Below are positions 4,869-24,265 of a stretch of 27,122 bases of DNA, one piece after another. A program made the position numbers and the translations under genes. The notes below the pieces were generated by a model, which searched no databases, had not been told where the DNA came from, and saw only the letters and a program-made list of their open reading frames with translations. Source of the stretch: a virus; IMG/VR virus record IMGVR_UViG_3300046791_000600, positions 1 to 27,122 of that record, one strand, 5' to 3'. How positions within the stretch are numbered: position 1 is the stretch's first letter; every line of letters begins with the position of its first letter.

Positions 4869-4883
4869 CGGAGGGGGATCTTG
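4869..4883 (+). repeat. 15-base intergenic motif, copy 1 (CGGAGGGGGATCTTG)
   Basis: The identical 15-mer occurs again at 23487-23501. Here it sits 37 bases upstream of the start at 4921; the second copy is 32 bases upstream of a start. It is too far from either ATG to act as an ordinary Shine-Dalgarno, so a shared regulatory signal is possible. Confidence 0.4.
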
Positions 4884-4920
4884 ACGGCTCCGCATTCTCC
4901 CCTGACGCTAACCGACAGCC

Positions 4921-10112: not shown

Positions 10113-10433
10113 GTGACGGGGACGATCGACAAGACGAACCTCCAGTTCCACGACAGCTCCTCGGCGCGCATCCGCAAGATCGGCGGCTACGTCGGGCCCG
10201 CCAGCTACGTCAGTGGCGGCGATCCGATCGGGCCGGGCGACCTCGGGATGGGCCGGATCGAGCTGATGCTGTTCACGCCGGCGACCAACGGCACCCTCTT
10301 CACCTATCCGGTGTGGGTGGCGACGGCGACCGGCGGCACGGTCAAGTGGCTGGTCGGCACCACCGGGGTGGAGGTCGCGGGGGGCGTCAACCTCTCGGCC
10401 TACACCGCGCGCTTCGAGGCGATCGGCAAGTAA
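10113..10433 (+). CDS. Small beta-rich head protein, unknown
   Basis: 106 residues, GTG start two bases after the previous stop, with GGAAGGGG upstream. It is predicted all-beta: RIELMLFTPATNGTLFTYPV, then WVATATGGTVKWLVGTTGVE, ending ARFEAIGK. No transmembrane segment or catalytic motif is seen. Its position right after capsid and decoration genes suggests a second decoration or head-completion protein. I do not recognise the family. Confidence 0.6.
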   Translation: MTGTIDKTNLQFHDSSSARIRKIGGYVGPASYVSGGDPIGPGDLGMGRIELMLFTPATNGTLFTYPVWVATATGGTVKWLVGTTGVEVAGGVNLSAYTARFEAIGK

Positions 10434-10441
10434 CCGTCGCC

Positions 10442-11221
10442 ATGCAGCTCACGACCTACCAGGCGGTCCCCAGCGGGATGTCGTTCGATCTGGACGTCAC
10501 CTCGACGGGGACCGCCTATCTCCTCTCGACGCCGGGCAACGAGGCCACGGTCGCGCTCCAGGGCACCGGCGTCTGGGCGGTGGAGATCCTCGCCTCGGCC
10601 GACGGCGTGGAGTTCACCCGGCTCGCGGTCCAGACCATGCCCGGGCAGTGGCGCTACGGCACCAAGGGGGCGGCCGCCGCGGCGATCCGCGTCCTCGGCT
10701 ACACCAGCGGCGTCATCTCCGGGATGCTCGCGCACGGCGGGCTGACCCCGATCACCAACGTTTCGGCGCTCTTCGGCTCCTACCTGGTCTACAACTACAA
10801 CAGCACGCGCGCCGAGCCCCCGAGCGACGGGCAGCTGCGCTTCGACACCAACCTGCCCGCGGCCGTCACCAAGGTGTGGATCGCCTACCAGTCCGATGGC
10901 GGCAGCGACCAGTATCAGAGTCTGCTGCGGCTGCCGGTGGGCGGCACGCTCCTCGTCCAGAAACGGAACGACCACTACACGGCGCTGCTGCTCACGCTGC
11001 GCGGCGCGTCGGTCGACAAGGGTACCTACGTCGAGGTGCCGGTCAGCTATCAGGAACACGTCGGGTCGCTGACCGCGGCGCAGAACCAGGCGATGCTGGT
11101 GGCGGTCTTCAGTCCGGGCGCGGCGATCTCGCTCACGCCGACGACCGCGACCGCGCTGCCCGGGCCGCCCGAGCCGTCCGGGCCGATCGCCACGCCCAAG
11201 GCGAGGGCCCACAAGCCATGA
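10442..11221 (+). CDS. Beta-rich virion structural protein (tail-fibre-like domain)
   Basis: 259 residues from the ATG at 10442; the Shine-Dalgarno is weak. The N-terminal ~90 residues contain a sandwich-like pattern (VWAVEILASADGVEFTRLAV). Residues ~120-215 have the G-x-L-R-x-D order with later strands (TKVWIAYQSDGGSDQYQSLL, LPVGGTLLVQKRNDHYTALL) that I associate with small beta domains in phage fibre and baseplate proteins. The last ~40 residues are a Pro/Thr-rich tail (TTATALPGPPEPSGPIATPK). The stop overlaps the start of the next gene (ATGA). A head fibre or tail accessory protein is plausible; no specific name is justified. Confidence 0.6.
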   Translation: MQLTTYQAVPSGMSFDLDVTSTGTAYLLSTPGNEATVALQGTGVWAVEILASADGVEFTRLAVQTMPGQWRYGTKGAAAAAIRVLGYTSGVISGMLAHGGLTPITNVSALFGSYLVYNYNSTRAEPPSDGQLRFDTNLPAAVTKVWIAYQSDGGSDQYQSLLRLPVGGTLLVQKRNDHYTALLLTLRGASVDKGTYVEVPVSYQEHVGSLTAAQNQAMLVAVFSPGAAISLTPTTATALPGPPEPSGPIATPKARAHKP

Positions 11222-11364
11222 CCGGGCTGATCGTCCTCTGGATGGTCTGGTCCGCCCTGACGAGTGCGGGCGCGGCGTGGGTCGTGGCGCGTCGCTTGGC
11301 GGCGCTGGAGCGACGGGTGGGCACGTTGGAGCGCGGGCTGGGCGTCACAGGGAGTGGGGCATGA
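11218..11364 (+). CDS. Small membrane protein with coiled-coil tail (48 aa)
   Basis: 48 residues. The ATG overlaps the previous TGA (ATGA at 11218-11221), and its own TGA overlaps the next start (ATGA at 11361-11364). Residues 3-24 are hydrophobic (GLIVLWMVWSALTSAGAAWV) and would span the membrane. They are followed by an amphipathic heptad-like helix (ARRLAALERRVGTLERGLG). TM-plus-coil micro-proteins in phage genomes include holin- and spanin-related proteins, but no lysis enzyme is nearby, so this remains open. The perfect overlap at both ends is good evidence that it is translated. Confidence 0.6.
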   Translation: MTGLIVLWMVWSALTSAGAAWVVARRLAALERRVGTLERGLGVTGSGA

Positions 11365-12080
11365 GCCAGGACTTCGGCTACTGCTGGCGCACGGTGCGGC
11401 TCTACTGCCCGGCGGCGCCGACCTTCCTGGCGCGCGAGTGGGTGCAGGCCGCCTGGAAGCAGCTCCTGGCGGCGCGCCGCTGGGGCTTCATGCGCGCCGA
11501 GATCGCGCTGCCGGTCCTCGCCGGCGACACGGCGATCATCCTGCCGCCCGACTTCGCCAGCTTCAAGGTGGTCGTCGACCAGGTGCGCCAGGTGCGCCTC
11601 CCGTTCACCACCACGATCGAGGAGCTCCTCACCGCCGACCCCGCGCTCAGCGCGACCGGCGCGCCGAACGCCCTCGTCGCGACCTCGCCGTCGCCCGACC
11701 CGCTCACCCTCGGCCAGGCGCGCTACCGGCTCTATCCCGCGCCGGCGTCCCCGGTCACCCTGACCGCGGTCTACCATCGCCAGGGCGGCCGCCTCACCGA
11801 CGCCGACGCCTTCGCGGGTGTGCTGGCCGACGGCGCCGAGGTCCTGGTCGCGGGTGCGCTCGCACAGGCCGCGCTCTGGCCCGGCACCGGCGAGAAGCCG
11901 AGCCCCTACTTCAACGCCGGGCTCGCCCAGACCAAGACCGCCGAGTTCAAGTACGGCGTGCAGATGCTGTCGCTGCGCGACGACGAGCAGTACCCCGACG
12001 ACCTGTGGGACAGCTGGCCGGAAACCTGTCACACGGCGGTCGGCGCCGACCCGCGTGCCACCGACGCGTGTGCCTGTTAG
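11361..12080 (+). CDS. Head-tail connector / adaptor-like protein, copy A
   Basis: 239 residues from the ATG at 11361, coupled to the upstream micro-gene. Architecture: N-terminal helix (FLAREWVQAAWKQLLAARRW), a beta-rich middle (AEIALPVLAGDTAIILPPDF, later YRLYPAPASPVTLTAVYHR), then a C-terminal helical part (AEVLVAGALAQAALWPGTGE and NAGLAQTKTAEFKYGVQM). This helix-beta-helix order is typical of neck or adaptor proteins that sit under the portal in phages with gp4-like connectors. Two genes at 23534 and 24258 have the same overall layout, suggesting three related connector proteins. The C-terminus has an unusual Cys-rich end (DACAC). The connector call is inferred from pattern and not from a verified match. 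Confidence 0.6.
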   Translation: MSQDFGYCWRTVRLYCPAAPTFLAREWVQAAWKQLLAARRWGFMRAEIALPVLAGDTAIILPPDFASFKVVVDQVRQVRLPFTTTIEELLTADPALSATGAPNALVATSPSPDPLTLGQARYRLYPAPASPVTLTAVYHRQGGRLTDADAFAGVLADGAEVLVAGALAQAALWPGTGEKPSPYFNAGLAQTKTAEFKYGVQMLSLRDDEQYPDDLWDSWPETCHTAVGADPRATDACAC

Positions 12081-12096
12081 TCAGTAGGAGAGCCTT

Positions 12097-12384
12097 ATGT
12101 CTGATCTGAAAACCTTCTGGGACAAGCCGGGGATGCCGATGAGCACCGACCTCGGCGGCGACGCCGTCGTCAGCAGCGGCACCGACCCGCAGGTCTCGCT
12201 CTCGGGCGAGAACGCGCTGCAGCCGTTCTGGACCAACGACCCGGTCCCCAAGACCGACGGCGAGGAGTCGTCGAACTCGGTGAGCGGCCTGCCGCAGCAG
12301 CCCTCCCGCTTCCAGCCGACCGAGATCCCGCCGCCGCTGCCGACCCTCCAGGATCGCCGGCCCGGCACCATCGACGAGCAGTAG
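12097..12384 (+). CDS. Small hydrophilic protein, unknown (95 aa)
   Basis: 95 residues, ATG with a good Shine-Dalgarno (TAGGAGAGCC). Acidic and Pro/Ser-rich, starting MSDLKTFWDKPGMPMSTDLG and ending LQDRRPGTIDEQ. It is probably mostly disordered, with tryptophans near both FW motifs (KTFWDKP, QPFWTNDP), an internal echo that may mark two copies of a short binding motif. No family is recognised. Context suggests a virion or assembly protein. Confidence 0.55.
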   Translation: MSDLKTFWDKPGMPMSTDLGGDAVVSSGTDPQVSLSGENALQPFWTNDPVPKTDGEESSNSVSGLPQQPSRFQPTEIPPPLPTLQDRRPGTIDEQ

Positions 12385-12396
12385 GAGGTCGCGCAC

Positions 12397-12702
12397 ATGG
12401 TCGTCACCCTGCAGCTCGCGCTCGCGGCCTCGCCCGTCAAGCGCCTCTCGGATGTCTACGGGGGGACGGCCGGCGTGCCCGACGAGACCAAGAACATCCC
12501 GTACCGGCAGCTGGTGATCACCAGCGTCGGCGCGTCGGCGACGATCGGCTCGACGGTCGGCGTCACGACCACGACCGGCTACGTCCTCCCGACCACCGGC
12601 CAGCTGGTACTCGGGCCGTTCCCCACCGGCGCCGTCAAGCTGAGTGATCTCTACGGCGTCGGGGCCGGGGCGACGCTGACCATCCTGGGCGTACCGTTCT
12701 AG
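12397..12702 (+). CDS. Small beta-rich protein with two LSD-x-YG motifs (101 aa)
   Basis: 101 residues, ATG with a strong Shine-Dalgarno (GTAGGAGGTCG). Predicted all-beta and Thr/Gly/Val-rich (ASATIGSTVGVTTTTGYVLP). A short motif is repeated near both ends: VKRLSDVYGG around residue 13 and VKLSDLYGVG near the C-terminus, which could form equivalent strands of a closed barrel or ring. The gene is followed after nine bases by the large fibre gene. No family is recognised. Confidence 0.55.
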   Translation: MVVTLQLALAASPVKRLSDVYGGTAGVPDETKNIPYRQLVITSVGASATIGSTVGVTTTTGYVLPTTGQLVLGPFPTGAVKLSDLYGVGAGATLTILGVPF

Positions 12703-12710
12703 GGGCCCCG

Positions 12711-14525
12711 GTGGCGGTCTTCGATCTCATCGAAGCGCAGTACGGGCGCACGGGTGGGTCGAATCCGCACACGCTGACCTTCACGGCGACGATCCCGACC
12801 GGCAGCCTGGTGCTGGCCTGGGCGCGCAACAACAACCTCGACGCCGGCCGCTCGATCACCGACAACAAGGGCAACACCTACACCCGCGTCGCCGACGGCG
12901 ACAGCTTCTGGGGCGACTGGTACTACGCCGTGAACGTCACCGGCGGCGCCAGCTTCGCGGTCAGCCACAACAACTCGGTCTCCTCGGCGGCGGCGCTGAT
13001 CATCCTCGCCTTCGTCGGCGACGCCAACGTCGTCCTCGACAACTGGTGCACCCTCCAGTACAACGGCGGCGGCGTCGCCACCTACGACTTCGGCGACTGT
13101 GCGACCTCCGTGACCGGCGCCCTCCTGGTGGGCAGTCTGGCCGGGCATCTGGCGGGGCTGCTCGGCTTCCACGACACGACCGGGTTCACCACCGCGACCG
13201 TCAACAGCACCGGCGACTACGTCGACGACGTCGCCTCGCAGTACAAGCTCGCCGGGGCGGCGGGGAACTACCGCGAGACCGGCACCACCGGGAGCGCCGG
13301 GCAGACGCTCGGCCAGGTGATCGCCTTCAAGGGCGCCCTGCCGGCCGGCACCGTCGCGCCGGGTACGGGGACGATCACGTTCGCGGGCCAGGTCACGACG
13401 CTCGTCCGCAGCGCGTTCAACGCGCAGCGCTACATGACGCCGTTCGTCGTCCGTCCGAGTGGGCTCGGGTCCGTCGACTTCGTGACCCTGGTCGATCGGA
13501 CGCTCCCGCGCTTCAAGTCGGTCGCCAACAGCGGCCACGTCGCGAGCGCGCAGGGCTACGACCTGATCCCCTACGCCGATGCGGGCTGTACCCAGCCGCT
13601 CGACTACGAGCGGGAGTTCTACGATCCGACGACCGGGCAGGTGGTCGACTGGGTGCGCGTGCCGGAGCTGCTGACCGGCACCACGATCTACTACGGCTAC
13701 GGCGACCCCTCGATCACCACCGACCGGACCACGCCCGCCGCCGTGTGGATCAATCACCACCTGGCGGTGTATCACCTGGGCGCGAGCGGGGGCACGCTCG
13801 TCACCACCGACTCCACCGCGCACGGCTATCACGCCACCAACAGCGGCGTGACCGCCACGGCGGGCCGGTTCGGCGGCGGCGGCGCGCTGTTCGATGCGGC
13901 CAGCGACAAGATCTACTCTGGGGCGACGGTGAGTGACTTCAGCACCAACGCGAACTGGGGGATGAGCTGCTGGTTCAAGCCGACCTTCGCCTCGACCGAC
14001 ACCAACCTGTGGTCGATCTTCGGGTCGTGGAACCTCTCCACCAACGACCCGCGCGCGCAGATGCTCTACCGCAACGACATCGGGCTCTACACCGAGATCG
14101 TCAACAGCGGGACGTCGCGGGCGCATCAGCTGTTTCCCACCTTCTCCGCCAATACGTGGCACTACATCGTGCTCTCCCACCCCGGCGCCGGCACGCCGTC
14201 GATCTGGTTCGACGGGACGGCGCTGACCCGGGTGGACTCGGGCTCCGGCACGGCGTCGGTGGTGAACCAGCCGTTCGTCATGGGCGAACGCCTGGTGGCC
14301 CCCGCCTGCGGGTTCAGCGGCGTACTCGACGAGGTGCGCTACTACGACTTCTTCACCGACAGCTTCCAGGTCGGCGCCGACTACGTGTGCCAGGGCGACC
14401 AGGCGACCTGGTGGGGCGCGACCGAGAACGAAGTGCCACTCGGCGGGATCGTCCCCGGCGACCTCCTCTTCGCCGGTGGCGCGGCCTCCCTCGGCTTCCG
14501 CATCAACATGCCGGACGAACCATGA
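12711..14525 (+). CDS. Fibre/adhesin: beta domain, DUF2341-like and LamG/ConA-like domains
   Basis: 604 residues, GTG start. Order: residues 1-205 form a beta-sandwich with a D-N-K-G-N-x-Y motif (SITDNKGNTYTRVADG), as in many phage receptor-binding proteins. A short repeat-like unit APGTGTITFAGQVTTL (~217-232) follows. Residues ~240-340 match the DUF2341 pattern (SAQGYDLIPYADAGCTQPLD, WVRVPELL, then IYYGYGDPS). Residues ~345-560 form a LamG/concanavalin-like domain with GMSCWFKPTF, NTWHYIVLSHPG and a closing FSGVLDEVRYYDFF. The end (GGIVPGDLLFAGGAASLGFR) resembles another shaft repeat unit as in the giant fibre. It probably binds glycans on the host surface. Its stop overlaps the start of the methyltransferase (ATGA), an unusual coupling of fibre and enzyme. 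Confidence 0.75.
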   Translation: MAVFDLIEAQYGRTGGSNPHTLTFTATIPTGSLVLAWARNNNLDAGRSITDNKGNTYTRVADGDSFWGDWYYAVNVTGGASFAVSHNNSVSSAAALIILAFVGDANVVLDNWCTLQYNGGGVATYDFGDCATSVTGALLVGSLAGHLAGLLGFHDTTGFTTATVNSTGDYVDDVASQYKLAGAAGNYRETGTTGSAGQTLGQVIAFKGALPAGTVAPGTGTITFAGQVTTLVRSAFNAQRYMTPFVVRPSGLGSVDFVTLVDRTLPRFKSVANSGHVASAQGYDLIPYADAGCTQPLDYEREFYDPTTGQVVDWVRVPELLTGTTIYYGYGDPSITTDRTTPAAVWINHHLAVYHLGASGGTLVTTDSTAHGYHATNSGVTATAGRFGGGGALFDAASDKIYSGATVSDFSTNANWGMSCWFKPTFASTDTNLWSIFGSWNLSTNDPRAQMLYRNDIGLYTEIVNSGTSRAHQLFPTFSANTWHYIVLSHPGAGTPSIWFDGTALTRVDSGSGTASVVNQPFVMGERLVAPACGFSGVLDEVRYYDFFTDSFQVGADYVCQGDQATWWGATENEVPLGGIVPGDLLFAGGAASLGFRINMPDEP

Positions 14526-15085
14526 CCGCCATCACCGACGCGGAACGGCGCACCTACGACGCGATCTGGCAGCACGACGCCTACGCCGCCCACGCGCCCG
14601 GCGAGCACTACGTCGACGTCTTCCTGGCGATGAGCGGCGCCGAGCCCGGGCAGCGCATCACCGATGTCGGCTGCGGCAGCGGCAAGGGCGGTGTGGCGCT
14701 CGCCGCGCGCGGCTTCGACGTCCAGCTCTGTGACCTCACCCACGCCGGCCTGGTCCCCGCGGCGCGGGCGCTGCCGTTCACCGAGACGGTCCTCTGGCGC
14801 GGGCCGATCCCGTGGGCCGACTGGTATTACTGCTGCGACGTGCTCGAACACCTGCCGCTGCCGTTCACGATGCTGGTGGTCAGCCGGCTGATCGCGCGCG
14901 GCCTCGGCGCCTTCTTCTCGATCGCGCTGATCCCCGACACCTTCGGCGCGCTGGTCGGCACGCCGCTCCACCAGTCGATCCAGAGCTTCACCGCCTGGCG
15001 CGACCAGCTCGCGGAGATCGGCGAGGTGGTCGAGTGCCGCGACCTCGGCGACACCGGCCTCTATGTCGTGCGGAGTGACCGATGA
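14522..15085 (+). CDS. Class I SAM-dependent methyltransferase
   Basis: 187 residues from the ATG at 14522, overlapping the fibre gene's stop. Methyl transfer from S-adenosylmethionine is indicated by motif I ITDVGCGSG (residues 46-54), an acidic residue at the end of the next strand (CDLT, D71), and motif IV CCDVLEHLP (104-112). The C-terminal strands end GDTGLYVVRSDR. An N-terminal helix with YDAIWQHDAY probably caps the active site. The substrate cannot be read from sequence: the protein lacks a target-recognition domain and the DPPY/NPPY or PC motifs of DNA methyltransferases, so a small molecule, sugar or protein target is more likely than DNA. It is coupled to the DUF115-like gene downstream (ATGA overlap). 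Confidence 0.8.
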   Translation: MTAITDAERRTYDAIWQHDAYAAHAPGEHYVDVFLAMSGAEPGQRITDVGCGSGKGGVALAARGFDVQLCDLTHAGLVPAARALPFTETVLWRGPIPWADWYYCCDVLEHLPLPFTMLVVSRLIARGLGAFFSIALIPDTFGALVGTPLHQSIQSFTAWRDQLAEIGEVVECRDLGDTGLYVVRSDR

Positions 15086-15957
15086 TCGATCCCGCGCTCC
15101 AAGTCCTCGACGGCATCGAACTGGTCGGCGGCGCGGTCAACACGCCCGACGACGTGCTGCTCGCCAACATCACCGCGAACATCCGCCGCGGCCACCCGCA
15201 GATCAAGGAGCAGCTCGGGCTGCAGCGCGACGCGATCGCGCTCGTCTGCGGCGGGCCGTCGCTCGCGGCGACGCTCCCCGAGCTGTACGCGCTCGCTGCC
15301 GACGGCGTCAAGATCGTCACCGTCAACGGCGCCTACCAGTGGTGCATCGCGCACCACCTGATCCCGTCGATGCAGATCGTGATGGACGCGCGCGCCGGCA
15401 ACGCCCGCTTCCTCGATCCGCCGCTCCCCCGCTGTCACTACCTGCTCGCCTCGCAGTGTGACCCGGTCCTCTTCGACGCGGTCGCCACCCGCCCGCACGT
15501 CTGGATCTACCACGTCGGGATCAACGACGACACGCCGACGACCAAGGCGGTGCTCGACGGCTACTACCTCGGACACTGGCACAACGTCGGCGGCGGCACC
15601 ACCGTCGGCACCCGCGCGCTGGTCCTCCTGCGCACGCTCGGCTTCGTGCGCTTCGATCTGTTCGGCATGGACTCGTGCTGGCAGGACGACGTGCACCACG
15701 CCTACGCGCAGCCGGAGAACGATCACGACCAGCGGCTGCGCATCACGGCGGCGCCAGCCGGGCATCCCGAGCTCGCGCGCGTCTTCTGGTGCGCGCCGTG
15801 GCACCTGCAGCAGCTGCAGGACTTCCTCCAGCTGGTACGCCTGCACGGCGACGCGTTCGTCCTCACCGTGCACGGCGACGGGCTGCTCGCCTACGCGCTC
15901 ACCAGTTCGGCTGACGTGCAACTTCTCGATGATCAAGGAGCGATAACTTATGGCTAG
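15082..15957 (+). CDS. DUF115/MptE-like protein
   Basis: 291 residues, ATG overlapping the methyltransferase stop. Features of the DUF115/6-hydroxymethylpterin-pyrophosphokinase MptE-like family, also found in the Maf flagellin-glycosylation factors: a Rossmann-like start ALVCGGPSLAATLPEL (residues 53-68), then VKIVTVNGAYQWCI, and SMQIVMDAR with a short acidic motif. A glycine loop GGGTTVGTRALVLL (about 170-183) leads into FDLFGMDSCW (about 192-201). Family members act in sugar or nucleotide-sugar transfer or in pterin pyrophosphoryl transfer; many uncharacterised copies exist in phages. With the methyltransferase upstream it may modify a glycan, either on the fibre or on the host surface; this is inference. 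The C-terminal eight bases overlap the next gene. Confidence 0.75.
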   Translation: MIDPALQVLDGIELVGGAVNTPDDVLLANITANIRRGHPQIKEQLGLQRDAIALVCGGPSLAATLPELYALAADGVKIVTVNGAYQWCIAHHLIPSMQIVMDARAGNARFLDPPLPRCHYLLASQCDPVLFDAVATRPHVWIYHVGINDDTPTTKAVLDGYYLGHWHNVGGGTTVGTRALVLLRTLGFVRFDLFGMDSCWQDDVHHAYAQPENDHDQRLRITAAPAGHPELARVFWCAPWHLQQLQDFLQLVRLHGDAFVLTVHGDGLLAYALTSSADVQLLDDQGAITYG

Positions 15958-16396
15958 TGCGTGGTCGGTCTACAACCTGGCGAAGAAGAAGATCGGCAAC
16001 GGCTCGATCAACCTCGCCGCCACCGTCTACCGGATGACGCTGCACACCAGCGCGTCCAACGCCAACACCGCGACCCTCGGCACCTACGTGTCGCTGACCA
16101 ACGAAGTGACCGAGAACTTCGGCTACTCGTCCTCGGGCAAGGCGATGACCTCCGAGGTCTGGACGACCGGCGCCTCCGCCGGCCAGTACAAGTGGGACAT
16201 GGATGACGTGTTCTGGTCGGCCAACGCCGGCACGATCGCGAACATCAAGATCGCGGTGCTGTGGCTGTCGGGCACCTCGGCGAACGGCCGGCACCTGGTC
16301 TGCCGCTCGCTGCTCTCGACCTCGCAGTTCTCGCTCTCGGCCGGCAACCGCCTCACCATCCAGATGAACGCGGCGGGTGTGCTGACGCTGACCTAG
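15950..16396 (+). CDS. Virion structural protein, unknown (148 aa)
   Basis: 148 residues, ATG with AAGGAG nine bases upstream; it overlaps the previous gene by eight bases. Pattern: SVYNLAKKKIGNGSINLAAT, then VYRMTLHTSASN, a Gly-Tyr turn (NFGYSSSGKAMTSEVW) and WDMDDVFWSANAGTIANIKI, finishing with RHLVCRSLL and a hydrophobic strand. This order (short helix, N-G-S-I-(N/D)-L, L-x-x-S, G-Y-x-x-x-G, D-D-x-x-W) is one I associate with small beta-rich proteins in phage fibre regions. It has no enzymatic motif. A fibre-attachment or tip protein is plausible. Confidence 0.65.
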   Translation: MASAWSVYNLAKKKIGNGSINLAATVYRMTLHTSASNANTATLGTYVSLTNEVTENFGYSSSGKAMTSEVWTTGASAGQYKWDMDDVFWSANAGTIANIKIAVLWLSGTSANGRHLVCRSLLSTSQFSLSAGNRLTIQMNAAGVLTLT

Positions 16397-16398
16397 TG

Positions 16399-16776
16399 AT
16401 GGCGCCGGAGAAGTTCGTGCTGCGGCTGGTCGACGCGGCCGGCGACCTGCTCGCCTGGGCGACGGTCTACGCCCAGCCGTCGCCGCAGGACCGTGCCGCG
16501 TCGTGTCCGTTCTGGCCGGTCGACGGCCGCACCACGCCGCTCGTGATCGAACGCGAGGGCGTCACCGACGCGATCACCGTGCACTGGTGCGCGCTCGATG
16601 TCGCGCGCCAGTCGGCGGTCGACGCGGTCGGGGTCGCCGCCGGGCAGGTGTTCGCCTTCACCTGGATCGAGCCGGTGTGGCTGGTGTCCGGGATGCGCGG
16701 CGTGCCGCTGCCGGCGGTGACCGAGCGGGCGTCGGTCGTCGCCAGCGCGCCCACCGGCACGATCGCGGGGGCCTAG
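16399..16776 (+). CDS. Small protein in the same frame as the giant fibre (125 aa)
   Basis: 125 residues from the ATG at 16399, two bases after the previous TAG; a GTG at 16396 is an alternative. Beta-rich and not recognised: VLRLVDAAGDLLAWATVYAQ, then VIEREGVTDAITVHWCALDV, then QVFAFTWIEPVWLVSG. Its TAG (16774-16776) is followed after twelve bases by the giant fibre's ATG in the same frame with no other stop. It could be the fibre's N-terminal attachment domain made as a separate protein, or joined to it by readthrough. No Shine-Dalgarno is clear for either start, so coupling or reinitiation is likely. Confidence 0.55.
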   Translation: MAPEKFVLRLVDAAGDLLAWATVYAQPSPQDRAASCPFWPVDGRTTPLVIEREGVTDAITVHWCALDVARQSAVDAVGVAAGQVFAFTWIEPVWLVSGMRGVPLPAVTERASVVASAPTGTIAGA

Positions 16777-16788
16777 CCCCGGGCCCCC
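16767..16788 (+). promoter_or_regulatory. All-GC inverted repeat directly before the giant fibre start
   Basis: GGGGGCC at 16767-16773 pairs with GGCCCCC at 16782-16788, with eight bases (TAGCCCCG) between. The loop starts with the stop codon of the previous gene, and the right arm ends at the base before the ATG. No Shine-Dalgarno is present. The stem could hold back initiation or affect termination at the TAG. Confidence 0.4.
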
Positions 16789-19700
16789 ATGGCCTCCCAA
16801 GTCTTCACGACCCTCGGCGCCCAGACCTGGACCTGGCCTGCGGGCGTGACCAGTGTGGTGGCCGAGTGCTTGGGCGGGGGTGGTAGTTCCGGAGACGCGA
16901 CCGGCAACCCGTGTACGAGTGGTGGGGGGAAGGGCGGTTCGTACGCGAGAACCACCATCACCAAAGGCGCGGAAGCCTCGCTGGACATTGTCGTCGCGGA
17001 TAAAGGGGCGTCGTCCTACGTCTCCCAGGGCGGGACGATGCGCGCGCTCGGGGTTGGGGGCACCAACTCGTCCACCAACGTGACGGCGAGTAGCAATGGG
17101 GCGGGGGCCACCGCGCAGAACGGGACACCCGTCGGCACGACGCTGTTCACGGGTGGCAACGGCGGCACCGGCAACTTCACCTCCGGTGTCGCCGGTTCTG
17201 GGGCTGGCGGCGGCGCGGCGGGCCCGACCGGCAACGGTGGCAATGCCTCCGTCAACGTCGCCGGGATCGTCGGCACGGGCGTCTGGGCCAACGGCGTGAC
17301 CTACCAGAAAGCCGGGTCCGCCGGGGTCGGCAACTCCACTGACGGCATCGCCGGGGTGGCCTACGGCGGCGCGGCGTCGGGAGCGAAAAAGAACTCGGGG
17401 GCGAACAAGCTCGGGGCGGCGGGCGCGCAGGGCATCGTCGTCCTGACCTGGCCCGACTCGATCCTGATCGCGCCGCCCGCGGGCACGTTCGGCCTGGTCG
17501 GCACGATCGCCACCGCGCTGATCCTGCTCGGGCCGATCCCCGCTGGCTCGCTCAGCCTCGGCGGTCCCCCGCCGACCCTCGCGATCATCCAGGGGCCGCG
17601 CATCGACGTCCCGTCCGGGTCGCTGGTTTTCAAGGGCCCGGCGCGTCCGGCCGCGGGTGGGTTCACCGTCACCCCCGGGGTCGGGGCGCTCACGCTCAGC
17701 GGGCTCGCGCCCACCGTCCCGACGCCGCTCCTCAGCACACCCGGCGTGGGGGCGCTCACCCTCACCGGCCAGCCGCCCAGCCGCCCGATCACCAGCGGCC
17801 TGGTCATCCCGGCCGGGGCGCTCACGCTCACCGGCCAGCCGCCGACCGCCGCCCTCGACACTCGGCTCGCCGTCCCGACCGGCACGCTCGTCCTCAGCGG
17901 GCTGGCGCCGAGCCTCGCCCTCGACACCCGCCTCGCCGTCCCCGCCGGCGCGCTGGTCCTCGCCGGCCCGGTCCCGACCGTCGCGCAGGCGCTCCGGTTC
18001 ACCGTCACGCCCGGGGTCGGCGCGCTCACCCTGACCGGCCTCGCGCCGTCGCTCGCGCTCGACACCCGGGTGGCCGTCCCGACGGGCCTGCTGACCCTCA
18101 GCGGCCTCGCGCCGTCGCTCAGCCGCCTCACCCCCGTCCCGACCGGCGCGCTCGTCCTGGCGGGCCTGCCGCCCGGCCAGGCGGGCCTGGTCAACGTCCC
18201 GGTCCCCGCCGGCGCGCTCCTGCTGCAGGGGCTGGCCCCGACGCTCTCCGCGCCGGTCCTCGTCGCCGTCCCGTCCGGCACGCTCCAGCTCACCGGCCTC
18301 GCCCCGACCGTCGGGCTGGCGGTGTCGCCGCTCGTGCCCGCCGGCGCGCTCACGCTCACCGGCCTCGCGCCGCTCGTCACCGCCACCGCTGGGGCGATCA
18401 CCCCCAGCGGCGCGCTCGTCCTGACCGGCTACGCGCCGACGCTCAGCCAGCCGCTCCTCACCGCCGTGCCCGCGGGCACCCTCGTCCTCCAGGGCCAGTC
18501 GCCAACCCTCGCCCGGATGGTGACGATCGTCACCCCCGCCGGGACGCTGACCCTCACCGGTCGCGCGCCCAGCCTCGCCTGGACGGTCACCCCACCCACC
18601 GGGACGCTCGTCCTGGCCGGCGCGCCGCCGACGCTCGCCTTCGTCACCCGGGTCGCGGTCCCCGCCGGCACGCTCACCCTCACCGGCTACGCCCCGGCGC
18701 TCACCGCCCGGGTCGGCCAGGTGCTCCCGACCGGCGCGCTCGTGCTCACGGGCTATGCGCCGGCCGTCGCGCGCACCGCCCGCCTGACCGTCCCCGCCGG
18801 GACGCTCACCCTGACCGGGCGCGTCCCCGCGCGTGCGGTCTGGTCGCGGGTCGTGCCACCGACCGGGGTGCTCCTCCTCCAGGGCTACGCGCCCAAGGTG
18901 ATCACGCCGCCGGCGCACCTGCCGGTCTGCATCGTCGACTTCCCGATCGACGACGGGACGTGCGCGCCGCCCAAGCCGGTCGTCCCGCCGGTCGTCGTCC
19001 GCGCCGTCGCGGCGCCCCGGACGCCCGCCCCCGTCGTCCTCTTGGTTGGCGCCGAGACCGCCGTCCTCGACGAGAGCAGCTACGCCCGATCGCTCACTCT
19101 GGTCGGCAACGCCGCGCGCACGACCGCGCAGGCCAAGTTCGGCACCGCGTCGATCACCTTCGACGGCAGCGGTGACCGGGTGACGACGGGAGATGCGGCT
19201 GAACTGAACTTTGGTGCTGGAGACTTCACCGTTGAGGGCTGGTTCCGGCTGACCGGAAAAGCCGACAGTCAAGCCCTGATGGGACAGTGGGACAACGCGG
19301 GATTTTTGTCCAACTGTTCCTGGTATTTGTACGTTGTCGGCGGTTCCCTGATGTTGCGGCTGGCCGTCGGCGGCACGTTCGATACCGGAAACGCGTGGTC
19401 GCCGACGTTGGGGCAGTGGTACCACGTAGCCGCTGACCGTCAGGGAACCACGATCCGCGTCTACGTGAACGGGGCGGTCCTGGCTACGAGTCTGTTCTTT
19501 TCTTCCACCGTGACAGATTCAACCGCAGCGTTAGTGCTCGGGGCCATCGGTGATACAGCCGGCTTTCCTTCCTTCGACTTCAACGGCCAGATGGACGAGG
19601 TCCGCATCACGGTCGGCCTGGCGCAGTATGCCGGCGCGTTCACGCCGCCCACCGCGCCCTTCCCGCGCGACCCTGTCGGCGTCCTCGCCAGTGTCGCCCC

Positions 19701-21297
19701 GGCGGCCCTCCAGCTGACCGGCCGCGCCCCGACGGCGCTCAGGCTGGCGTCCGGCCTCGTTCCGGTCGCGCCCGCGTTACTCCAGCTGACCGGCCGCGCC
19801 CCGACCCTCACCACGCTGGGGGGCACCGTCCCGCCCAACACCACCCCCGCGACCGCCCTCGACCTCGGGACGCTCCCCGTCAGCCTGTCGCTCGATGTGA
19901 GCGGCGCCCCGGGGCCGACACACGACGTGTGGTTCACCTACACCGCGCCGACGCCGCTGGCGGCGTACACGGTCGGCTGGTTCGCCTCGATGGTCGGGCA
20001 GTCGGTGGTGACCCTCGTCTTCACCGGCCCGGTCGACGCGCTCGTGAACTACAACGGGGCGTCTGCGCCCATGCAGCTCCCGGTCACGGCCGGGGTCACG
20101 TACTACTTCCAGGTGACGACTGCGACGCCGACCGCCCCCTTGGTCCTGTCGCTCGTCGCCGGCCCGAACGTCGCCTCGCCGCTCGGGGCGTTGGTCATCA
20201 ACGACGATGCGACCGGTTTCCCGATAGCGATCCTCTCACCGACCACGGGGGAGGTGCTGCAGTATCGACCCTTCCTCGCCGGCGAGACCGGCGCGGTCCT
20301 CGTTGGGGGGCCGTCGCTCTGGGAGGACGTGGAGGATCTGGCGGCGCTGCACCTGTTCGACGCGACCCTGACCGAGATCGCCGCGCCTGCATGGCCGCGG
20401 CCCTATGCGAATCAGGCGATCGGCAGCAACCGGGTCAGCCGGTTCTATGTTGCGGTCGACAACGAGGAGGGCGACGGCCCCGCGCTCGTGACGACGATCG
20501 ATGCGACCGGCGCGTTCGGGCCGACGACCTGGCACCTCCCGAACACGACGGTGCGGGCGATCGAGCCGTCGCGCGACGAGACGATCCTCTACTACCTCCG
20601 CGACTTCGGCGGGCAGGTCCACCGCTGGGATCTCGTCGCCGACGCCGCTCTCTCGGATCTGGCCCCGGCGGTCACCGACTACCAGCCGTACGGGCAGTGG
20701 GGTCGTGAGTTCCTCGTACTGTCGGATGGGTCGATCATCGTGCCCTACATGAAGCTGCCGGGCGTGGGGCTGATCACCTCGTTTGTCCGTCGTTACAGTC
20801 CCGCCGGCGCGATCCTCAACACCTACGACCTCGGGCGCTTGAAAGTCAACCGGGTCGCCTACGATGGGCTCGATGCGCCGGGGGCCTTCTGGATCTGGTC
20901 CTACCTGCTGGAGGAGACGACCAACACCCCGACCAACGACTGCCGCTTCCACTACGTGCGGGTTAGTGACGGGGTCATCTTGCAGACGTTCGACACCCAC
21001 ACGGTCGCGGAAGGCGTCTACGTCGGCGCCGCCGACCCGGCGACCCTGCCGCCCGGTGCGCGCTTTGGGCACGCCGGCTCCTGTCCGTTCTATGCCCTCC
21101 CCTACGCGCTGCCGCCGTGGGGTGCGGACGTGCCGCCCGAGCCGGAGTTCTGCCACGCCGTCTGCATCGTCGACTTCCCGATCGACCCCGGCACCTGCGC
21201 GCCGCCGACGCCGGTCGTGCCGCTGGTCGTCGCCACGCCGCGCCCCCCGCGCGCCGGGCGTCGGGGTCCGCCGGGATGGAAGAGGAGGAGGGACTGA
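16789..21297 (+). CDS. Giant modular tail fibre / adhesin (1502 aa)
   Basis: 1502 residues. Order: residues 1-222 form a glycine-rich domain (CLGGGGSSGDATGNP to GAAGAQGIVVLTW), like the Gly-rich tips of phage fibres. Residues 225-706 hold about 22 tandem units of ~22 residues with core P-(A/T)-G-(T/A)-L-(T/V)-L-(T/A)-G-x-(A/P)-P. A Cys-Pro motif CIVDFPIDDGTCAPP lies near 713. Residues 753-950 form a LamG/ConA-like domain (FDGSGDRVTTGD, DFTVEGWFRL, QWYHVAADRQ, MDEVRITVGL) with clearly lower GC than its flanks. Two more shaft units occupy 963-1013, and a PPC-like beta domain (DVWFTYTAP, VTYYFQVTT) 1014-1127. A propeller-like part follows to ~1440, then a second motif (CHAVCIVDFPIDPGTCAPP) and a basic tail ending PGWKRRRD. 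It probably forms the receptor-binding shaft and heads. Long antisense frames here are composition artefacts. Confidence 0.75.
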   Translation: MASQVFTTLGAQTWTWPAGVTSVVAECLGGGGSSGDATGNPCTSGGGKGGSYARTTITKGAEASLDIVVADKGASSYVSQGGTMRALGVGGTNSSTNVTASSNGAGATAQNGTPVGTTLFTGGNGGTGNFTSGVAGSGAGGGAAGPTGNGGNASVNVAGIVGTGVWANGVTYQKAGSAGVGNSTDGIAGVAYGGAASGAKKNSGANKLGAAGAQGIVVLTWPDSILIAPPAGTFGLVGTIATALILLGPIPAGSLSLGGPPPTLAIIQGPRIDVPSGSLVFKGPARPAAGGFTVTPGVGALTLSGLAPTVPTPLLSTPGVGALTLTGQPPSRPITSGLVIPAGALTLTGQPPTAALDTRLAVPTGTLVLSGLAPSLALDTRLAVPAGALVLAGPVPTVAQALRFTVTPGVGALTLTGLAPSLALDTRVAVPTGLLTLSGLAPSLSRLTPVPTGALVLAGLPPGQAGLVNVPVPAGALLLQGLAPTLSAPVLVAVPSGTLQLTGLAPTVGLAVSPLVPAGALTLTGLAPLVTATAGAITPSGALVLTGYAPTLSQPLLTAVPAGTLVLQGQSPTLARMVTIVTPAGTLTLTGRAPSLAWTVTPPTGTLVLAGAPPTLAFVTRVAVPAGTLTLTGYAPALTARVGQVLPTGALVLTGYAPAVARTARLTVPAGTLTLTGRVPARAVWSRVVPPTGVLLLQGYAPKVITPPAHLPVCIVDFPIDDGTCAPPKPVVPPVVVRAVAAPRTPAPVVLLVGAETAVLDESSYARSLTLVGNAARTTAQAKFGTASITFDGSGDRVTTGDAAELNFGAGDFTVEGWFRLTGKADSQALMGQWDNAGFLSNCSWYLYVVGGSLMLRLAVGGTFDTGNAWSPTLGQWYHVAADRQGTTIRVYVNGAVLATSLFFSSTVTDSTAALVLGAIGDTAGFPSFDFNGQMDEVRITVGLAQYAGAFTPPTAPFPRDPVGVLASVAPAALQLTGRAPTALRLASGLVPVAPALLQLTGRAPTLTTLGGTVPPNTTPATALDLGTLPVSLSLDVSGAPGPTHDVWFTYTAPTPLAAYTVGWFASMVGQSVVTLVFTGPVDALVNYNGASAPMQLPVTAGVTYYFQVTTATPTAPLVLSLVAGPNVASPLGALVINDDATGFPIAILSPTTGEVLQYRPFLAGETGAVLVGGPSLWEDVEDLAALHLFDATLTEIAAPAWPRPYANQAIGSNRVSRFYVAVDNEEGDGPALVTTIDATGAFGPTTWHLPNTTVRAIEPSRDETILYYLRDFGGQVHRWDLVADAALSDLAPAVTDYQPYGQWGREFLVLSDGSIIVPYMKLPGVGLITSFVRRYSPAGAILNTYDLGRLKVNRVAYDGLDAPGAFWIWSYLLEETTNTPTNDCRFHYVRVSDGVILQTFDTHTVAEGVYVGAADPATLPPGARFGHAGSCPFYALPYALPPWGADVPPEPEFCHAVCIVDFPIDPGTCAPPTPVVPLVVATPRPPRAGRRGPPGWKRRRD
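17470..18910 (+). repeat. ~22 tandem 66-bp units encoding the fibre shaft
   Basis: Degenerate in-frame 66-bp units, some expanded by one or two codons, each encode one copy of the V-P-A-G-T-L-T-L-T-G-x-A-P-T-L motif plus a variable spacer such as ALDTRLA. Nearby units are often closest to each other; for example ALDTR spacers occur at three or four successive sites near 17860-18070. This suggests growth by unequal recombination. Two further units lie beyond the LamG domain, at about 19676-19830. Confidence 0.75.
18925..18950 (+). repeat. CIVDFPID-encoding repeat, copy 1
   Basis: The 26 bases at 18925-18950 are identical to 21160-21185 within the same gene. They encode the start of the motif (V)CIVDFPID, followed by a Gly-Thr-Cys-Ala-Pro-Pro segment in both copies. 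Confidence 0.6.
19190..19600 (+). other. Compositionally distinct (lower-GC) LamG-coding segment
   Basis: Counting by hand, lines 19201-19260, 19261-19320 and 19321-19380 have 33, 35 and 37 G/C of 60, and 19501-19560 has 35 of 60. A shaft-repeat line such as 17941-18000 has 50 of 60. Codons rare elsewhere in the window (AAA, TTA, TTT, GGA) cluster here. The reading frame is uninterrupted. Confidence 0.6.
21151..21185 (+). repeat. CHAVCIVDFPID-encoding repeat, copy 2
   Basis: The 30 bases at 21151-21180 are identical to 23435-23464, and the part 21160-21185 is identical to copy 1 at 18925-18950. It lies 112 bases before the stop of the giant fibre. Confidence 0.6.
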
Positions 21298-21298
21298 G

Positions 21299-22999
21299 AT
21301 GGTGACCTTTCCACCCGGCAGCTGTCTGAAACGCACGACCGGGGGGTTCCTGCCGCCGGTCGGTCAATCCGAGTCGCTCCTCTGGATCCGGCTCGACGCG
21401 TCGGCGAACCCGCGCATCCTGCAGGTGTTCTACACCGTCGACCGTGACTACACCGCGCCCTACATCAAGATCGCCTCGCCGCCCGGGAGCCCGGACACGA
21501 TCGGGATGGAGGTCTTCGACGGCACGACGATCTCGCGCAGCTATCCGTACCAGGACCTGCAGCTCCAACGGCTGAAGTGGTACCCCACCTGGATCCGCTG
21601 CACGAGCGGCGTCCTCACCCTGATCGCGCACGCCAACGGCAACGGCACCTCGGTGTACTTCCCCACAGGCCCGTGGACTGGGCGCTCCTTCGTCTCGCAC
21701 TATCTCGGCGGCGACGGGCTCTCGTCGACCACCGGCGTCTCGCTCGCCGTCTACCGCGCGTGGGACTACCTCCCGGCGTCGTCGGATCCGATGGCCTTCA
21801 TCTGGTCGGAGCTGGCCTCGCTCGAACGGAACTGGGACATCACCCTCCCCGAGCCGCCCAATACGACCTTCGTCGACACGGCGCTCGATGTCGATCTGCT
21901 CGACCAGTCGGTCAACGCCCGCCACTGGGTCGCCGTCGGGTCTCCGGTCGTCACCCCCGGGTTCGACTGGGGCACGATCAGCCCGCTCGCGGCGGACAAC
22001 ACGCTCTACTCGTCGGGGTTCGAGTTCGGGCTCAGTCTCGATCGACCCTACCAGTCGGGCCTCCACATCGGGACCGGCTGCGGTGGGGGCAACATGTTCG
22101 GCTGTGGCAGCTCGGGACTGGAACGCCTCTTCGAGACCGGCGGGCGCGGCTTCAGCCGCGGCGCCCTGCACTTGGATCTCCAGGCTCTGGTGCCCATGCC
22201 GCAGCCGGAGGGCAGTGGGACGCCCGGGCTGCGGGTGTTGTTCGTCTACGACCGCAACAACCCCTCCTACATGGTGTATCGCCCCGGCGGCGGCTACTAC
22301 AACCCGCCCCCGCCCTACAGCACCAACCTCAGCGCGGTCGTGTGGGGGGACGGGTCGATCTATCTTGAGTGTGCCGACGGCGCGGCGGGCGTGTATCCCT
22401 GGATCGCGACCCTGATCACTGCGACCTCGGCCCCCGGCCTCGTGCCGATGGACGGCGTCACCACCACCGGGCTGCAGTTCCTCTGGGATCTGAGCGGGTC
22501 GACCCTGGTCGTGCAGGCCTACGTCAACAACGTGCTGGCGGTCACCGCGTCGGGACCTGACCGGGGGCTGGTGTCGAAGACCTGGAACTACGTCGCCAGC
22601 TACACCGATCGCTCCCCCTCGGACAACGCGAGCCACACGGGGTTCTACACCTTCAAGTCGATGTACTCGAACATCGCGGTCTACCCGACCAACGTCCTGG
22701 GCAATCGGCCCGGCTGTTCGGGGGCGGTGCCGATCTCGCTGGCGTACGGGTGCTGTTACCCGATCCCCGTCGCCCTCCCGACCAGCCTGACGGGCGACAT
22801 CGCGGCCAACAAGCTGTCGATCCACGGCTCCTCGTTTTTGCCGGGCGCGTTCTACGTCTCGGTGCAAGGGCCGGAGGGCGTGTTCGTCGCCTACGACTGG
22901 GACTCGTCCACCGAGACGTTGATCGTGCTCAAGAACCTGAACCCGCCGCTCCAGGCCGGCGGCACCTACTGCGTGACCGTGGGGAACAGCTGTCGCTGA
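21299..22999 (+). CDS. Fibre-region protein with beta domains and C-terminal IPT-like fold (566 aa)
   Basis: 566 residues from the ATG at 21299, with a strong purine-rich Shine-Dalgarno (AGAGGAGGAGG), starting right after the giant fibre. The N-terminal ~190 residues look like a ConA-like sandwich (SESLLWIRLDASANPRILQV, TWIRCTSGVLTLIAHANGNG). The middle has Gly/Cys-rich loops (GTGCGGGNMFGCGSSG) and a second sandwich (WDLSGSTLVVQAYVNNVLAV). The last ~80 residues (NKLSIHGSSFLPGAFYVSVQ, ending GTYCVTVGNSCR) resemble an IPT/Ig-like module. It is probably an adhesin subunit working with the giant fibre. It ends in TGA followed by C, and the next gene lies in the same frame just four bases later. 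The specific family is not recognised. Confidence 0.65.
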   Translation: MVTFPPGSCLKRTTGGFLPPVGQSESLLWIRLDASANPRILQVFYTVDRDYTAPYIKIASPPGSPDTIGMEVFDGTTISRSYPYQDLQLQRLKWYPTWIRCTSGVLTLIAHANGNGTSVYFPTGPWTGRSFVSHYLGGDGLSSTTGVSLAVYRAWDYLPASSDPMAFIWSELASLERNWDITLPEPPNTTFVDTALDVDLLDQSVNARHWVAVGSPVVTPGFDWGTISPLAADNTLYSSGFEFGLSLDRPYQSGLHIGTGCGGGNMFGCGSSGLERLFETGGRGFSRGALHLDLQALVPMPQPEGSGTPGLRVLFVYDRNNPSYMVYRPGGGYYNPPPPYSTNLSAVVWGDGSIYLECADGAAGVYPWIATLITATSAPGLVPMDGVTTTGLQFLWDLSGSTLVVQAYVNNVLAVTASGPDRGLVSKTWNYVASYTDRSPSDNASHTGFYTFKSMYSNIAVYPTNVLGNRPGCSGAVPISLAYGCCYPIPVALPTSLTGDIAANKLSIHGSSFLPGAFYVSVQGPEGVFVAYDWDSSTETLIVLKNLNPPLQAGGTYCVTVGNSCR

Positions 23000-23002
23000 C
23001 GT

Positions 23003-23485
23003 ATGCCGCCTGTCAATGACCTCTGCACCGGCGCGCTGCCGATCACCGTCCCGTCGACGAGGGTGATCGACACCACCACCGCGACCAACGACCCGGCGAC
23101 GCCCGACAGCGACTGGGGATCGGGCGACTCGAACAACGGCGTGTGGTTCACCTGGACGGTGCCCCCGGGCTGGACGCGCCTCGGCATCACCCTGCATGAC
23201 GACGACTACCAGGGCGTGCTCACCGTCTTCGAGGGCAGCTGCGGCGCGTTGGTCGTGCCGGAGGAGGAACAGGGGGGCTACAGCAACGGCACCCGCGTCG
23301 ACGGCGGCTACGTCCCCGGGCAGACCTACTACTTCCTGGTCACCAGCTACGACCCGGGCGGGGTCGCGGCGTTGACCCTCACGTTCTTCCACCCGGAGCC
23401 GACCGGCGCCATCTGCGTGACGCTCTCCGACGGCTGCCACGCCGTCTGCATCGTCGACTTCCCGGTGGGGGCGCGCTTTGACTGA
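23003..23485 (+). CDS. Stand-alone PPC-like beta domain protein with CIVDFP tail
   Basis: 160 residues, ATG three bases after the upstream TGA and in the same frame; the Shine-Dalgarno is weak. The pattern NDLCTGALPITVPSTRVIDT, NNGVWFTWTVPPGW, YQGVLTVFEGSCGAL, GQTYYFLVTSYDP and ALTLTFFHPEP is that of a pre-peptidase C-terminal (PPC)-like beta-sandwich, as found in secreted and adhesive proteins. The same kind of domain lies inside the giant fibre (1014-1127). It ends GCHAVCIVDFPVGARFD, a shortened copy of the fibre's C-terminal motif. It is likely an accessory fibre piece, or a C-terminal domain of the upstream protein if the TGA is read through. Confidence 0.65.
   Translation: MPPVNDLCTGALPITVPSTRVIDTTTATNDPATPDSDWGSGDSNNGVWFTWTVPPGWTRLGITLHDDDYQGVLTVFEGSCGALVVPEEEQGGYSNGTRVDGGYVPGQTYYFLVTSYDPGGVAALTLTFFHPEPTGAICVTLSDGCHAVCIVDFPVGARFD
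23435..23464 (+). repeat. CHAVCIVDFP-encoding repeat, copy 3
   Basis: Identical over 30 bases to 21151-21180. It then diverges into a short GARFD end and a stop, so this copy lacks the Gly-Thr-Cys-Ala-Pro-Pro part. Confidence 0.6.
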
Positions 23486-23486
23486 T

Positions 23487-23501
23487 CGGAGGGGGATCTT
23501 G
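23487..23501 (+). repeat. 15-base intergenic motif, copy 2 (CGGAGGGGGATCTTG)
   Basis: Identical to 4869-4883. It sits in the 48-base gap after the last fibre-region gene and 32 bases upstream of the connector gene at 23534. Both copies mark the start of a new functional block. Confidence 0.4.
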
Positions 23502-23533
23502 CCGTCCGCCCCGGTTCCCCGGAGACTGCTCCC

Positions 23534-24265
23534 ATGCCGTACAGCGTGACCACGCTGGCCGACCTCCAACTCGTCATGGCCCAGCGCTGGGACCAGGTGG
23601 TCTTCTGGACGCCCGAGGAAGCGCGCCTCGCCCTCAACGAGTCGCTCCGCGAGTGGAACCTCCTGACCGGCCGCTGGCGCACCGTCGTCCCGCTCGACGT
23701 CCTGGCGCACGTTCCAGAAGTCGCGCTCCCCGGGGTCCTCAGCTACGCGATGCGGGTCACCACCGCCGCCGGCGCGCCGCTCCACCCGACCTCGATCGTC
23801 GAGCTCGACCTCGCCGAGCCGCAGTGGCGGCTCCAGACCGCGGCCGTCCCGACGCTCTGGGCGCCGGTCTCCCTGACCCAGATCGCGATCTGGCCGGCAT
23901 CCCCCACGACCGTCCTCGCCGGCCTGCGCGGCGACGGCGTGATGCGCACGCCGGTCCTCACCAACCCCGCCGACCTGGTCGCCCTCGGCGAAGAGATCGT
24001 CGACGTGATCGTCGACATGGCGCTGCACGTCGCCGCCTACAAGGAAGCGGGCGACCGCTGGCGCGCGACCCGTCCCTACTTCGAGGCGTTCCTCCAGGCC
24101 GCCGCCGACGAGAACAGTCTCCTCAAGGAGCACCAGGCCTACCGCCGCTGGGCGGGGCTCGACCGCCGCCGCGACCTCCAGCCGTCGACCGGCACGCCCA
24201 GCCAGCTCCAGGGCGTCGTCTCGCAGTTCAGTCGCCACGACAAGTCCGAGGTCGCCAATGACTGA
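23534..24265 (+). CDS. Head-tail connector / adaptor-like protein, copy B
   Basis: 243 residues, ATG. Layout: an N-terminal helix-turn-helix-like part (DLQLVMAQRWDQVVFWTPEE, ARLALNESLREWNLLTGRW), a beta middle (WRTVVPLDVLAHVPEVALPG, then LTQIAIWPASPTTVLAGLRG) and a C-terminal helical region (ADLVALGEEIVDVIVDMALH, AAYKEAGDRWRATRPYFEAF). This resembles connector or neck proteins of tailed phages that bind the portal. It shares this plan with genes at 11361 and 24258. It overlaps the next gene by eight bases. The call rests on pattern and place; it could also be a tail-completion protein. Confidence 0.6.
   Translation: MPYSVTTLADLQLVMAQRWDQVVFWTPEEARLALNESLREWNLLTGRWRTVVPLDVLAHVPEVALPGVLSYAMRVTTAAGAPLHPTSIVELDLAEPQWRLQTAAVPTLWAPVSLTQIAIWPASPTTVLAGLRGDGVMRTPVLTNPADLVALGEEIVDVIVDMALHVAAYKEAGDRWRATRPYFEAFLQAAADENSLLKEHQAYRRWAGLDRRRDLQPSTGTPSQLQGVVSQFSRHDKSEVAND

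Follow-up and report, generated by a model that had tools for sequence, protein, structure and literature searches.

Why does one short peptide recur at the ends of protein modules in two different genes of a phage? The question is raised by a virus record of IMG/VR, in which the 27,122 nucleotides analysed here (the window) include genes for a terminase-like protein, a portal protein, a capsid protein and an SU10-type adaptor. A scan of the whole window with a degenerate DNA form of the hexapeptide CIVDFP gave exactly three matches, at 18928, 21163 and 23447 on the + strand, and none in 100 shuffles; two of them lie in the open reading frame (ORF) 16789-21297 and one in the ORF 23003-23485, both on the + strand. 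The repeated stretches described in these two genes by the first-pass annotation are real, with 21-31 identical bases between copies: copies 2 and 3 have 31 bases in common (21150-21180 = 23434-23464), copies 1 and 2 have 27 exact bases in common and are 89% identical across 73 nt, and copies 1 and 3 have 21 exact bases in common. The copies and their surroundings are arranged as follows, the CIVDFP-containing peptides being called tags.

16789-21297, + strand: carrier gene 1, 1502 aa, with two tags; order of parts: Gly-rich N-terminus, 22-aa repeat shaft, tag 1, LamG-like domain, PPC-like domain, beta-propeller, tag 2, basic tail
16807-17451, + strand: glycine-rich domain (Pfam Gly_rich_2, aa 7-221, E = 4e-7)
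17461-18924, + strand: shaft of about 22-aa (66-nt) repeats of type VPAGTLTLTGLAPTL
18925-18996, + strand: tag 1, VCIVDFPIDDGTCAPPKPVVPPVV, at the joint of shaft and LamG domain
19162-19608, + strand: Laminin_G_3 / concanavalin-like lectin domain (aa 792-940, E = 4e-18)
19831-21099, + strand: PPC-like domain and beta-propeller (aa about 1015-1437), homologous to proteins of the relatives L075, L100, L073 and L082
21151-21231, + strand: tag 2, CHAVCIVDFPIDPGTCAPPTPVVPLVV, in the low-confidence C-terminal tail beyond the propeller
21299-22999, + strand: intervening cassette gene, 566 aa, no family match
23003-23485, + strand: carrier gene 2, 160 aa, last gene before the adaptor, with weak similarity to a tagged 829-aa cassette protein of a relative
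23435-23482, + strand: tag 3, CHAVCIVDFPVGARFD, C-terminal, a short form without the second Cys half
23491-23525, + strand: promoter-like element GGGGGATCTTGCC-N-GAGACT, with a start codon 42 nt downstream of GGGG
23534-24265, + strand: SU10-type adaptor protein gene, the conserved 3' border of the variable cassette

The placement of the copies at module ends holds in general. Copy 2, on the other hand, had been taken for the C-terminus of the fibre, and it falls short of the very C-terminus, 32 residues lying beyond its last Cys. According to prediction, the tag region is unstructured (pLDDT about 28-39, as against 70-87 in the adjacent propeller); AlphaFold2 prediction of the 160-aa protein without an alignment gave a pLDDT of 44 and was unusable. 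The window and ten proteins of relatives gave no Pfam match to a C-terminal chaperone domain of the Peptidase_S74 type (ICA/IMC). The claim that the identity of the copies is too good for the amino acids alone is weakly true. Under this genome's codon usage, a match of two CHAVCIVDFP copies in all codons has P = 0.012; of 21 synonymous positions, 4 differ between tags 1 and 2, where 8.4 differences are expected (P = 0.03). The DNA identity of the window copies is only mildly unexpected (P about 0.01-0.03), and this mild excess makes recent copying within the genome possible but does not require it.

Two further features of this region are recorded here in their own right. The 566-aa protein carries no CIVDFP tag and terminates in CVTVGNSCR; this end (22964-22996) resembles the ICVTLSDGC directly 5' of tag 3, and the 566-aa protein and the tag 3 region may have a second small Cys motif in common. 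Within the putative adhesin cassette, at 14522-15957, lie the genes for an MptE-like protein (PF01973) and for a protein that weakly matches methyltransferases, and modification of cassette proteins by these products is possible.

The capsid gene (8498-9550) was assigned because its product resembles the major head protein of Tunturi phages. With its protein (MCP) as query, 46 related contigs of uncultured phages were found, and bacterial genome contigs gave no match. The nearest cultured phages are Tunturi_1 and Tunturi_2, at 25% MCP identity, which are podoviruses of Acidobacteriota (PMC11924767); no tag was found in them. The cassette that differs from phage to phage is situated between the conserved head genes and the adaptor gene. 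In Tunturi_1 (L101, PP887698.1), several consecutive virion or tail genes at 10371-23028 start with apparent Sec signal peptides, e.g. MKKFIQLALLFILPAAASAQ and MKKLILILPLLATSLAGAQ, and the ‘DSFDHY’-like proteins of L114 and L118 have similar starts. The ‘DSFDHY’ proteins adjoin RVTQ-repeat proteins, a pair widespread in diverse phages (L018, L021, L030, L041, L107-L119), and have a conserved C-terminus of their own, NPxTGxAWTxAxxNAxxFGxKRT.

The literal CIVDFP string is absent from the 46 related phages. An exact-string search of viral contigs returned 13 loci and no relevant relative; these loci, which were terminase-like proteins, short head proteins and spurious frames, were rejected. Neither a query with the short tag nor one with just the C-terminal part of carrier 1 gave matches, and a scan of the relatives with a too-strict pattern was negative. 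The tag became visible on reading the C-termini of cassette genes, and its general form could be defined as C-x(2-4)-[FL]-P-[IVL]-[DE], often followed by G-G-[ST]-C-P. Endings in the relatives include CITGAFPVDDAAAGGSCPARPLP, CIPADFPIDVVPPGGSCSAGLLP, CATDFPVDTPSGTACRTDFPI, CPVDFPIEAEPAGGSCAPPFFDPDTEENWP, CPVDFPIDPND, CPVTFPIG and CRITFPIDVSLGGSACAALVLP, among others. The strict tag lies within the last 45 residues of 15 of the 818 proteins of the relatives, compared with 0.95 in shuffles, and all 15 map to the cassette between the head genes and the SU10-type adaptor. A scan of 20 whole records with the DNA form gave 13 sense sites, none antisense and none in the reversed control. Twelve of these are known tags, and the thirteenth is a free-standing cassette ORF of L041 (MNVCASTFPIDPVTPGGACVPGFFDPDTDASWT; 10854-10955), a putative ORF of 33 aa that is essentially the tag alone and whose ATG overlaps the TGA of the gene before it; it may be translated or be the remnant of a deleted gene. 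In 12 of 20 genomes the strict tag is on the gene that directly precedes the adaptor, and in 18 the product of this gene has a Cys within its last 40 residues; in the two remaining genomes, L078 and L085, the tag is on a neighbouring cassette gene. There are variations: the tags of L088 are internal, several tags have a single Cys, the tail is merely Cys/Pro-rich in the distant members L086, L093, L095 and L100, and some cassette proteins are untagged, e.g. the ‘DSFDHY’ proteins and the product of window 21299-22999. No earlier description of such a tag was found in literature searches, and we know of none.

The proteins that the tag ends or joins are unrelated to each other, and comprise RVTQ/VVEV-repeat proteins (with an N-terminal domain that is F5/8-type or other), F5/8-type lectins, PPC-beta-propeller, beta-helix, LamG and Gly-rich proteins. 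The search of viral sequences that the first-pass annotation had called for thus yielded a degenerate form of the motif on different domains of relatives; the motif is neither absent elsewhere nor bound to one fixed site with constant domains around it. Tags follow repeat shafts (window tag 1, L082, L027 and the RVTQ repeats) and are also found on globular beta-propellers and PPC proteins. Internal tags are located at joints, namely tag 1 of the window, where the shaft meets the LamG domain, and two tandem copies in L027; the counterpart of the L027 protein, L082_3822, terminates shortly beyond its tags. In a set of five propellers, the window protein and four relatives with 24-36% identity to it, the tail Cys forms an invariant column. 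Five distinct RVTQ proteins are tagged within the clade, as against none at 13 loci outside it, of which two run off the contig and a few match in other than the C-terminal part. Among PPC-propellers, those of the window, L127 and L130 have the tag, those of L124 and L126 only the tail Cys, and those of L122, L125, L128 and L129 neither. Outside the clade, then, both of these carrier folds are without the tag. The tag is restricted to the clade and to the cassette, and the clade restriction could in part reflect shared descent. The conserved, attachment-like part of these proteins is C-terminal or at a module end and their N-termini differ, which is not the pattern of a classic N-terminal anchor of receptor-binding proteins (RBPs).

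At the 3' end of the cassette lies a promoter-like element of the pattern GGGG[AG]TCTTG[AC]C-N17-GA(C/G)(G/A)CT. On the sense strand 26 distinct sites match it strictly, and the antisense strand has no such site; simulated sequence would give about 0.2 per Mb. Most sites have a start codon 42-51 nt downstream (mode 44), which suggests that the element is likely a near-leaderless phage promoter. The genes that it precedes are the adaptor gene and a small one beyond the portal gene, and its sites include window 4873-4910 and 23491-23525, L076 9950 and 17605, L078 1441 and 9957, and L083 4865, 7766 and 9957. Read in frame, its -35 half encodes GGSCP in L018, L070, L030 and L034, and GGSCS in L099; the GGSCP half of some tags is, in other words, the translated -35 box. 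Tag and element are nevertheless separable, since window tags 1 and 2 and those of L021, L039, L072_1755 and L027 are without the element, and the elements at window 4874 and L078 9957 are without a tag.

Is the tag then conserved as DNA or as a peptide? Two explanations regard the peptide as secondary. In one, the repeated sequence is a recombination joint for the swapping of modules and the peptide its by-product. This reading, one of the two that the first-pass annotation had offered, draws on the 31 bases common to copies 2 and 3, on codon identity somewhat above chance, on similar tags on unrelated carriers (L030, L033, L034), and on the last genes of L033 and L072 (L033B/L072_880), which are unrelated upstream and 81% alike over 230 nt from the tag onwards. 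Copies are also more alike within than between genomes in amino-acid identity (0.63 versus 0.49, permutation P = 0.0004; P = 0.017 when the window is left out), a likeness that would fit duplication or conversion, with the caveat of shared ancestry. In most pairs of unrelated last genes, however, homology begins at the downstream promoter or the adaptor and not at the tag. All copies are in frame, and the DNA-form scan of the 20 whole records revealed none that was out of frame or antisense. Between genomes, observed and expected codon identities are 0.62/0.71 for Cys, 0.85/0.82 for Phe, 0.58/0.46 for Pro, 0.83/0.83 for Ile and 0.85/0.68 for Asp, so that the third positions of Cys, Phe and Ile are close to the codon-usage expectation and those of Pro and Asp moderately above it; in L048 each of the four F-P-I-D codons has an alternative third base. 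On the whole, the variation at third positions is roughly that predicted by codon usage, and the tag is therefore conserved as a peptide and not as a DNA joint; nucleotide conservation does not in general exceed what the peptide needs. The joint is improbable as the primary role and may still contribute, because the tags adjoin the conserved 3' border of the cassette. In the other explanation, the tag is an accidental translation of the regulatory element at this border, as the in-frame GGSCP and GGSCS would suggest. The C-x3-FP-[IV]-D core, however, is not within the element, tag and element dissociate, and the core amino acids are kept while their codons vary. The whole tag as a translated DNA element was rejected for the core on these grounds; the explanation is largely refuted there, retained for the GGSCP half only, and extremely improbable as an account of the tag.

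What these findings show is a short Cys-containing sequence at module ends of unrelated carriers, conserved as a peptide and confined to one cassette of one clade. The carriers are presumably virion adhesins and the cassette a receptor-binding one. With somewhat less than even confidence, we propose that the C-terminal tag of this clade, of which CIVDFP is the form found in this phage, serves as a docking plug for adhesin-like proteins that are exchanged rapidly. A fixed virion component would recognize the tag as a short linear plug, the cysteines perhaps helping or locking the docking, and any newly acquired adhesin with a tag could thereby be mounted; internal copies (tag 1, L027) might be old C-termini turned into joints by fusion to a further module. 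One peptide at the ends of unrelated proteins and on a flexible tail is what such a docking tag would look like. Of the two options in the first-pass annotation, docking or crosslinking is favoured over recombination joints, and a shared Cys-based tag with some copying within genomes fits the module ends, the different domains and the within-genome likeness. Well-studied phage RBPs attach via their N-terminus (PMC8262889), so that C-terminal docking would be unusual. The more general reading is held with greater doubt: a universal coupling peptide of 10-30 aa would mount any adhesin on a common virion socket, occur also as a free 33-aa ORF in one genome, and reverse the usual N-terminal anchoring of RBPs. 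A docking plug, if the tag is one, would account for the exchange of entire adhesins (lectins, propellers, repeat proteins) with no need to evolve an attachment domain anew for each, and would provide a sequence handle for receptor-binding proteins in uncultured phage genomes as well as a small peptide for finding the virion-side socket.

The main rival to the docking plug is a disulfide staple or oligomerization clamp, in which hydrophobic F-P-I together with a cysteine or two would hold the ends of trimeric shafts in register and link them covalently, in the manner of a collagen cystine knot or a fibritin foldon and with no docking to the virion. Tags placed after repeat shafts, a carrier 1 otherwise poor in cysteines, and a full tag of about 30 aa, plausible as a mini-domain, are all consistent with it. 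A staple is unlikely in view of the globular beta-propellers and PPC proteins that are tagged too, the homologous repeat proteins outside the clade that lack the tag, and the single Cys of several tags. The C-termini of phage fibres are often distal and host-binding, and an FP(I/V)D stretch flanked by Cys could be exposed as a small loop; the tag might on this basis be a host-directed ligand at fibre tips, either a receptor-binding loop or a host surface anchor. This is decidedly improbable: the tag is conserved while the rest of the cassette diversifies, the opposite of what is expected of a host-binding determinant, and internal copies (tag 1, L027) would lie buried in the shaft.

The proposed docking plug could be compared with several known systems. 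The T4 fibritin foldon and collagen cystine knots are about 30 aa or shorter and register trimers, some with Cys; the tags, unlike these, are also present on globular propellers, and no sequence similarity is claimed. Mosaic phages have conserved boundary or linker sequences and short repeats at module borders. The tag resembles them as a short repeated sequence at such borders, and differs in being conserved at the peptide level and always in frame. Modular phage RBPs combine a conserved attachment module with exchangeable specificity modules (PMC8262889), as would the tagged proteins; RBP anchors, however, are N-terminal folded domains, and the tag is a C-terminal peptide of 10-30 aa. Tailspikes have exchangeable C-terminal intramolecular chaperone/autocleavage (ICA) domains (PMC3742443), which are likewise C-terminal modules common to unrelated phage fibre proteins, but are large, folded and self-cleaving, and no such domain was found with the tag. 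Encapsulins, whose shell has the HK97 fold of phage capsids, load their cargo through C-terminal targeting peptides (PMC7925596). There, as is proposed for the tag, a short linear peptide on a flexible C-terminal tail allows unrelated proteins to be mounted on one shell; the cargo of the tag, by contrast, would be displayed adhesins, and the tag has a conserved Cys and tandem or internal copies. The likeness is one of logic, and none of sequence would be expected.
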